Shown here: in pieces, positions 29,396 to 32,110 of the stretch | How positions within the stretch are numbered: the stretch's first letter is position 1 | Layout of the letters: every line of letters begins with the position of its first letter | DNA from: Magnetococcales bacterium | Lineage (GTDB): Bacteria; Pseudomonadota; Magnetococcia; Magnetococcales; UBA8363 | Length of the DNA stretch: 50,918 bases | Assembly (NCBI GenBank): GCA_015228815.1 | Contig: JADGCV010000031.1 | Span: forward strand, 1-50,918 | Direction: 5' to 3' | Position numbers and translations under genes: made by a program | The notes under the pieces: model-generated | Databases searched by the model: none | What the model saw: only the letters and a program-made list of their open reading frames with translations | What the model was told of the DNA's origin: nothing

Positions 29396-29549
29396 CCGCC
29401 CTCTGAATAATGTGCCCCCCTCTGAGTAATGTATCCCCCCCTCTGAGTAATGTATTCCCCCCCTCTGAGTAATGTATCCCCCCTTCAAATGATGTTCCCC
29501 CTCTTTGAGTAATGCCGCCCTCTCCAAGTCATGTTCCCCTCTGAACATA
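29396..29549. repeat. Degenerate ~20-bp minisatellite
   Basis: Eight or so units of CTCTGAGTAATGTATCCCCC run in tandem, varying in the length of the C-run (3-7) and in a few bases (for example CTCTGAATAATGTGCCCCC and CTCTTTGAGTAATGCCGCC). It lies between rlmJ and luxR. The minus-strand reading gives HYSEGGI repeats, but no start or ribosome binding site supports a gene. Confidence 0.8.
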
Positions 29550-29729: not shown

Positions 29730-30467
29730 ATGAATGTTATTGAATTTATCGAAAAAATAAAACAGTTTGAGACGATTGAACAATTCAAGAAATCTGTCGG
29801 ATTCTTCCTGTCTCGATGTGGTTTTGACTCTTGGGCTTATACGGTTAAATTTCCAGATTCCTATAATAATGGAACATTTGAAACGATGCATAACTGGAAC
29901 CAGGAATTTGTCGATCGTTATGTCAACATCCATATGCCCCATTGTCCAAGATTCAAACATTTATGGAATTCTCCGGTTCCCCTTGTTTATGATCGTGAGT
30001 TTTTTAAAAATGATTTAAAGATGTTACCTGTTCATCCAGAACCGGTCAAGAAGGTCATCGATGATATTATTGATTTTCGGTATCACGGCCATGGTTTTTC
30101 ACTGGTGACGCATGGCAAATATGGTGACAAGGGGGTATTGACGCTGCAAAACAGGGATCAAAGAAGGGATGGATTGGATGCGATCACGTTGAGCTTTCAT
30201 GTGGCCAATGCGTTTTTTCCCTTCATGCACATGAAATACATCGAACTGACAGGATGGCGTCCCCCTGGTGGGGTGTTCGAATTGACCGAGCGGGAAAAGG
30301 AGTGTTTGCGTTGGGCTGCCGACGGCAAGACCTCATGGGAAACGGGAATGATCTTGAACGTTTCCGAGAGGACGGTGAATTTTCATCTTGCCAACGCGCA
30401 AAAAAAACTTATGGCAACGAACAAGATTCAGGCTGTGGCGCGGGCGATTCTGTACCATATTCTCTAG
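29730..30467 (+). CDS. LuxR-family regulator (orphan, autoinducer-binding type)
   Basis: The 245-residue protein has an N-terminal autoinducer-domain fold (~1-165) and a C-terminal LuxR helix-turn-helix (FELTEREKECLRWAADGKTS, ILNVSERTVNFHLANAQKKL, ~175-240). Aligned by eye with TraR, the ligand-pocket Trp57 is Phe (NWNQEFVDRY), Tyr61 is kept, and the Asp70-Pro motif is lost (IHMPHCPRF). The pocket may therefore bind a non-standard acyl-homoserine lactone or another signal. No luxI synthase gene is near. GGTGGGG precedes ATG 29730. The gene is AT-rich, and its TAG stop lies inside an inverted repeat (30464 onward), so the C-terminus was probably set by that insertion. Confidence 0.88.
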   Translation: MNVIEFIEKIKQFETIEQFKKSVGFFLSRCGFDSWAYTVKFPDSYNNGTFETMHNWNQEFVDRYVNIHMPHCPRFKHLWNSPVPLVYDREFFKNDLKMLPVHPEPVKKVIDDIIDFRYHGHGFSLVTHGKYGDKGVLTLQNRDQRRDGLDAITLSFHVANAFFPFMHMKYIELTGWRPPGGVFELTEREKECLRWAADGKTSWETGMILNVSERTVNFHLANAQKKLMATNKIQAVARAILYHIL

Positions 30468-31302
30468 CCCAAGTTTAACACGGTGAAAATTTTCCACTTT
30501 GATATCATGATCTTATGACAAAGAAAAAAATCGTGTGGCACTACATTTTTAATTTCTTGCCTACATAGTCACCTACCGGATTGGAGCGCAAAGAGGTTTC
30601 ACAGTCCCTTTAGAAATACTTGACAATATCAAAATAATCAACGATTTTCAATTACTGTGAGTTAGCCCATGTTTAACATGCTTAAAAAAATGCTATTATA
30701 AATCAATATTTTACGTGATAGTTTTTCTTCGAGTGGCACTACATTATGTCAATTCTTCATTTTCTGTTCCTGTAACATATTGTTATTTCATAGGAATATT
30801 CCAGAATCTCAGTTCTGACGTTTTTGTTTTTGCAGGTAACCTATCGTAGTGCCATAATATATGGAATTATCAGTTTCCAACGAACTGATTGTTATTGTAA
30901 CCTTGATGGGTATGCTTGTCACCTTTCGACCAGTACTGGAAATGAAAATCGTGCGATATTTTCTCATGTTTTTCACCTTGATAGCAGACGTTCAATGTTG
31001 GCGTATATGGAGTGAAAAAATGACCGTCTGATTGTCTCAAATTTCAAAGAATGGCGGTTTTGTAGTGCCACTCCAAAAAAAATCGTCACGTATCTTATTG
31101 ATTATAGTGAGAATATAAAATGCCATGTTAAACTCGGGTTAGAATTTTTTGGAATCCAACCCGAACCCAGATGGAAAATAAGATGACAGTCTGAAGAGTC
31201 CAATCAGAGAATTGTACATTTGTAGTGCCTTACGGGAAAAATCGATAGCGTAAATATTTGATTAATAAGTAAATAAAAATCACTATGTTAAACATGGGCT
31301 AG
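30464..31302. mobile_element. Nested MITE-like inverted repeats
   Basis: Four related ~80-bp arms occur. The left arms start CTAGCCCAAGTTTAACA (30464) and TTAGCCCATGTTTAACATG (30662), and each leads to GTGGCACTACA (30535, 30733). The right arms are their reverse complements: TGTAGTGCCAC (31061) to CATGTTAAACTCGGGTTAG (31142), and TGTAGTGCC (31221) to ATGTTAAACATGGGCTAG (31302). The two right arms are also direct repeats of each other over ~130 bp. One element thus appears inserted within, or duplicated beside, another. No transposase is encoded inside the AT-rich interior. Mobilisation in trans is an inference. Confidence 0.7.
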
Positions 31303-31375: not shown

Positions 31376-32110
31376 TTATGAGCTTCGGTGTGGCATGTTT
31401 TCGAACCGATTCCAGTCTTCGGGACGGTCAACGTCCCATCCGATGGTGGTTTCCGTCCAGGAAAAACCAAGAGTGACCAATCTTTTTCTTGTATTCTCGG
31501 CGACTGTTTCCGTTCCCCATGGGATGTCCACGAATAATTGCGGATGGTCACGGGTCAGGGCAAGCAGAAGATAGCCGCCGTCTTCCGCGGGGACGAGGAC
31601 GGCATCATGGTTGTCAAGGGACGCTTCGACCTGATCGAGGAGGGGGGGGGCGATGGAGGCGGCGTCACCGCCGAGGAGCAGAATGGCGCGGTGGGATTGA
31701 AGTTGGGTGCTGACAATGGCGGCCAGGCGTTGACCGAGGTCGCCGTTTCCCTGAAGACGGCGCCGTCCAGGGTCGGCGATGGTATCGAATGACGGATGAT
31801 CGCATGTCGGGGTACACCACAACAGGAACTCCCGGCCTGGGGCCTCCTGGCACCAGGAACGGGCAACGGTGGCGACGTGGCTGAGCAATCGTTCATGCGC
31901 CCGGGCCGCTCCACGGGGACCGAGCAGGGGGATCAGCCGGGTTTTGACCTGCCCCGGCTCCGGGGTCCGGCCCAACAGGTTGAGCGACAGGGGACGTCGG
32001 CGAAGAAGCGGCGTCCCTTCCTGATCTCCGGTTCCCGGCGCGAGGGCCAGATGCCGGTCAGGGGAATTTCGGTCAAGGGGTGTCGGCAGGGGGGTGCGGT
32101 TGTTTTTCAC
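31376..32110 (-). CDS. DUF2064/TIGR04282 glycosyltransferase-like protein
   Basis: About 244 residues. [20 protein letters not shown] matches the start of the family (nucleotide-binding GRxPxPGxxKTRL), and [20 protein letters not shown] plus [16 protein letters not shown] match the GDxP and EDGGYxL motifs of this GT-A-like fold. It is annotated elsewhere as an rSAM/selenodomain-associated or arsenosugar-type transferase; the substrate is unknown. The first ~40 residues are not conserved and overlap lpxD by 38 bp; the GTG start lacks a clear ribosome binding site, so a start further in is possible. It is the last gene of the shape/envelope operon. Confidence 0.8.

Follow-up and report, generated by a model that had tools for sequence, protein, structure and literature searches.

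The repeats that follow a LuxR-type regulator gene in the window (the whole stretch of 50,918 nucleotides that was analysed, i.e. positions 1-50,918, forward strand, of contig JADGCV010000031.1 of a Magnetococcales bacterium, GCA_015228815.1) are almost certainly two internally deleted, non-autonomous derivatives of IS1634-family elements, inserted in turn: an outer element at a CTAG at the end of luxR, and an inner element at a TTAG within the outer one. Both are related to full-length insertion sequences (ISs), both are flanked by duplicated target sites, one is nested in the other, and the luxR stop codon occupies its ancestral position. The features of the locus are listed in Table 1. Genomes, contigs and collected loci are designated by G, C and L, respectively; the genome containing the window is G000.

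Table 1. Features of the luxR locus (window coordinates)
Feature	Position	Strand	Basis
LuxR-type regulator gene	29730..30467	+	ORF; Pfam PF03472 (Autoind_bind), PF00196 (GerE); homologue ends
luxR stop codon TAG	30465-30467	+	sequence
Outer target duplication, left copy, CTAG, includes luxR stop	30464..30467	.	sequence; YTAR duplications in relatives
Outer IS1634-derived non-autonomous element	30468..31298	+	tips, matched CTAG duplications, profile matches
Arm A1, 3'-type IS end, left of outer element	30468..30545	+	3'-end profile E=4.2e-8, 23.9 bits
Inner target duplication, left copy, TTAG	30662..30665	.	sequence
Inner IS1634-derived non-autonomous element, 473 bp	30666..31138	+	tips, matched TTAG duplications, full-length similarity
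Arm A2, 3'-type IS end, left of inner element	30666..30743	+	3'-end profile E=9e-19
GTAGTGCCATAATA, remnant of region upstream of transposase gene	30846..30859	+	5' regions of G042, G038, G022 elements
Transposase last-codon remnant, inner element, frameshifted	31007..31031	+	3' coding ends of G028, G034, G038 elements
Arm A3, 3'-type IS end, right of inner element	31061..31138	-	3'-end profile E=8.7e-27; 69/78 to L052, L057 ends
Inner target duplication, right copy, TTAG	31139..31142	.	sequence
Decayed transposase gene end, outer element (TGGAATCC...AAGATGACAGTCTGA)	31150..31194	+	3' coding ends of full-length elements
Arm A4, 3'-type IS end, right of outer element	31221..31298	-	3'-end profile E=1.5e-21; 75/78 to G045 end (L060)
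Outer target duplication, right copy, CTAG	31299..31302	.	sequence
Convergent gene downstream of luxR and the elements	31376-32110	-	ORF

Arm architecture, target duplications and nesting

All four arms are 78 bp long and consist of the tip CCCnnGTTTAACA, a 56-bp interior and the motif GGCACTACA, spaced identically in A1-A4; their interiors are moderately alike (41-53 of 78 positions). The same two-part end signature is present in 13 of 48 genomes of the same order (own genome counted), where the 56-bp spacing is nearly invariant, and a reversed control pattern gave no matches; this architecture is not a product of chance. Judged by a profile of 3' ends made from other genomes, with the window sequences left out, all four arms are 3' ends (bit scores: A3 84.3, A4 67.3, A2 58.4 and A1 23.9), and their alignment with a 5'-end profile covers little beyond the tips. 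An earlier, sequence-only reading of this DNA had described four arms with common tips and inner motifs, forming one inverted pair inside another. The arms lie where it placed them, and the nesting is also right: the outer pair (A1-A4) is bordered by CTAG on both sides and the inner pair (A2-A3) by TTAG on both sides. The other possible pairing (A1-A3 with A2-A4) was rejected because of its mismatched flanks. The outer element measures 831 bp with the inner element, and 354 bp without it and without one TTAG.

Among the matches listed, 82 of 100 ends with a proper tip, collected from public genomes and viral contigs, adjoin YTAR (TTAG 28, TTAA 21, CTAG 19, CTAA 14). The bases next to the tips in the window are therefore the target of the IS, duplicated on insertion. 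The two-part end pattern also occurs in ten IMG/VR viral contigs (L255-L264); some of these may be chance matches, and others ISs residing in phage or prophage DNA.

The symmetric arrangement, in which all four arms are of the 3' type, would also be produced by an inverted duplication giving rise to a single 3'-3' fold-back element rather than by two independent insertions. We regard this origin as highly improbable, since each pair of arms is flanked by a matched duplication of its own (CTAG or TTAG) and the two right arms represent different subfamilies: A4 agrees at 75 of 78 positions with an end from G045, and A3 at 69 of 78 with ends from L052 and L057. Such a difference fits two separate insertion events.

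Full-length relatives and the derivation of the window elements

A search for a transposase gene with identical ends, proposed in the sequence-only reading, was successful: an IS1634-family transposase is encoded by Magnetococcales elements of about 2.1 kb. In the complete genome G038 (4,719,581 bp), a 2,095-bp element with the signature end is present eight times, each copy containing a 643-codon ORF, and those copies read at both ends have matched 4-bp duplications (e.g. TTAA, TTAG, CTAA). Full-length elements of 2.09-2.12 kb with matched 4-bp flanks are also present in G028, G034, G042, G044 and G045. The transposase from G044 matches model NF033559 (IS1634 family) with 270.6 bits (cut-off 100) as well as Pfam DDE_Tnp_1, and the end consensus C-----YT is found in the full-length elements (CCCATGTT... 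in G038, G042, G044 and G045). The 5' end of these elements has only the tip in common with the 3' end, and the GGCACTACA-like motif is reversed there.

Two other identities were considered for the repeats. YTAR elements of the IS5/IS701 type are ruled out by the NF033559 match. The sequence GTTTAAC/GTTAAAC fits the R-box consensus of integron attC sites, which are likewise ruled out, the arms being transposon ends with target duplications and with IS1634 transposases between them. For an IS1634 subgroup that is widespread, the window locus provides a compact end signature (GTTTAACA-N56-GGCACTACA) as well as a 4-bp target, YTAR, and this signature allows ends of the subgroup, together with miniature derivatives, to be located without recourse to the transposase. 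The transposase itself would recognise a two-part end, composed of the tip CCCnnGTTTAACA and the GGCACTACA site 56 bp further in; judging from its conservation, GGCACTACA may be a second transposase-binding site, whose 5' counterpart would overlap the transposase promoter.

Almost nothing of the transposase gene survives in either window element: its last codons, in decayed form, are kept beside the right arm (outer element, AAGATGACAGTCTGA; inner element, GTGAAAAAATGACCGTCTGA, frameshifted). In addition, the stretch GTAGTGCCATAAT, which precedes the start of the transposase gene in full-length copies, is preserved in the inner element. Both elements are therefore products of internal deletion, non-autonomous and oriented alike. 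A promoter-like scan match (30829-30858) covers part of the GTAGTGCCATAATA remnant, which is possibly the -10 region of the transposase gene. Unlike their full-length relatives, both window elements have a transposase-3'-side arm at each end; their left ends may have been replaced, most obviously by recombination or transposition that joined two 3' ends from adjacent copies in inverted orientation. At none of the other loci collected do opposed 3'-type ends lie 3.5 kb or less apart, although many of these loci stop at a contig end.

Remains of full-length copies occur in the own genome as well. The end of C10 holds the 5' end and most of the transposase gene of such an IS, and the start of C79 a second 5' end, while two IS 3' ends close C50 and open C91, respectively; all four contigs break within the element. 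C50 and C91 have exactly 77 bases in common before they break off, a pattern resembling the collapse of a multi-copy repeat in a de Bruijn assembly, and full-length copies are probably hidden in the assembly gaps. The transposase that moved both window elements in trans would presumably be of the IS1634 type and come from another place in the genome. A further IS1634-like transposase, only distantly similar (30% identity), is encoded at G000:C21:71942-73111, with relatives in G041, G043, G022, G023 and G038.

The genome-wide search with the arm, also suggested by the earlier reading, thus revealed IS ends elsewhere in the own genome, while no miniature copies of either element came to light apart from the two nested ones in this draft assembly, where copies may have been lost at contig breaks; the remaining matches are ends of full-length elements. 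The window elements share with MITEs their short length (473 and 354 bp), terminal inverted repeats, lack of a transposase gene, target-site duplications (CTAG/CTAG and TTAG/TTAG) and the presence of a related IS in the same genome (as partial full-length copies). Multiple near-identical copies are missing from the draft genome, and the elements are for this reason better termed MITE-like than a MITE family. The MITE-like character originally proposed for the nested repeats is borne out by the transposase with the same ends, the matched duplications and the occurrence of similar miniature derivatives in other bacteria. Against the explanation by two successive insertions stand the absence of another miniature copy in the draft genome, the lack of a base-exact empty site, the 3'-type left ends and the weak profile match of A1.

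The luxR stop codon and RNA folding

According to the explanation that we favour, the outer element of about 354 bp would have entered the CTAG at the end of luxR (CTC-TAG), duplicating 4 bp and keeping the stop codon; the site before insertion would be CTCTAGGGAAAGG, with a single CTAG. Later, the inner 473-bp element, representing a different subfamily, would have entered a TTAG inside the outer element.

The luxR TAG directly adjoins the element tip, and this had led to the proposal that the repeats supply the stop codon, i.e. that the insertion truncated or re-terminated luxR and so defined the end of the protein. This is extremely improbable and, of the initial interpretation as a whole, it is the part that has to be abandoned, whereas the repeats, their nesting and their MITE-like nature stand. 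The TAG belongs to the duplicated CTAG, whose second copy follows the opposite end of the element (31299-31302), so the stop codon predates the insertion and the original site read CTC-TAG. In addition, the comparison with relatives lacking the insert, which the earlier reading had itself set as a refuting condition, revealed that luxR homologues in four genomes of the same genus (G041, G042, G043, with three copies, and G045) have their C-terminus at the same position as the window protein, whether the stop codon is TAG, TAA or TGA. The element must therefore have entered at a stop codon that was already in place, without destroying it. A base-exact empty site was sought in relatives by way of luxR and its downstream neighbour; the two genes are not adjacent there (their counterparts are on separate contigs or, in G043, about 10 kb apart), so that no such site was obtained and the argument is carried by the C-termini of the homologues. 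An insertion placed precisely at a stop codon can thus spare the gene, and adjacency of a stop codon to an element tip does not equal truncation.

Relatives of the window luxR also occur as tandem paralogues, two in G043:C146:146247-147773 (L111, L118) and three in G015:C9 (L117, L119, L122). Upstream of luxR in the window (29400-29540), a degenerate motif of some 25-30 bp (CCTCTGAGTAATGTATCCCCCC...) is directly repeated several times, with C-runs of varying length.

Among the matches listed, 7 of 101 insertions fall on the stop codon of an ORF of at least 200 codons (a threshold picked after the fact), compared with 61 of 2,619 (2.3%) other YTAR sites (Fisher p 0.012). Landings on stop codons may be slightly commoner here than among other YTAR sites, which is suggestive only, and selection against gene-breaking insertions would explain the excess. 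A more far-reaching view, which we consider rather unlikely, is that this IS1634 subgroup, through its YTAR target (four palindromic bases with TAA or TAG on either strand), can land on stop codons and, by duplicating the target, leave genes intact; that derivatives with two 3' ends are favoured substrates; and that luxR has thereby been given a long structured 3' UTR.

It had also been suggested that the arms could fold into very long RNA hairpins, and folding in silico agrees with this: the inner element reaches -142.3 kcal/mol, against a mean of -96.2 for shuffled sequences (z -9.8), and the whole region has a z of -9.2. The luxR mRNA would carry a long fold-back RNA just after its stop codon, with a possible effect on luxR expression. 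Taken together with the position between convergent genes, such folding might mean that the nested repeats have been kept as a regulatory RNA, i.e. a luxR 3' UTR hairpin that controls how stable the mRNA is or keeps transcription from running on into the convergent gene. We find this improbable, because the inverted repeats of any transposon must fold, a scan of the locus for terminator-like sites found none, the element is absent beside luxR in relatives, and the arm interiors differ widely.

Comparison with known elements

The length of the target duplication varies in the IS1634 family, and IS1634 and IS1549 make long, variable ones. A 2008 review assigns to this family (formerly the IS1549 group) ends of the type C-----YT, a length of 1500-2000 bp and AT-rich duplications of 5-6 bp (PMC2266710), and ISPfe2, another member, generates 6-bp duplications (PMC3281130). 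The full-length partners of the window elements resemble the family in their NF033559 transposase and C-----YT ends, and the window elements differ from it in having no transposase. The duplications, both in the full-length relatives and in the window, are of 4 bp and mostly YTAR instead of 5-6 bp and AT-rich, and the full-length relatives (2.09-2.12 kb) slightly exceed the reviewed range of 1.5-2.0 kb. The papers searched, as distinct from the ISfinder database, describe no subgroup of the IS1634 family that targets a 4-bp YTAR.

Miniature derivatives of the same kind were encountered in other bacteria (L165/L246, 369 bp; L197/L228, 216-217 bp; L181, 400 bp). They resemble the window elements in their end signature, in 4-bp YTAR duplications that match on both sides and in the lack of a full-length transposase gene, and two of them occur as pairs of near-identical copies. 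They combine one 5'-type and one 3'-type end and none is nested, whereas the window elements are of the 3' type at both ends. A further parallel is the 187-bp ISL3-related MITE of Microcystis (PMC11448079), which is also short and non-coding, with IS-like ends, target duplications and strong fold-back; it is a high-copy element (31-33 identical copies), while only two nested copies were found in the window genome. The window elements are thus an ordinary addition to a known kind of IS derivative.
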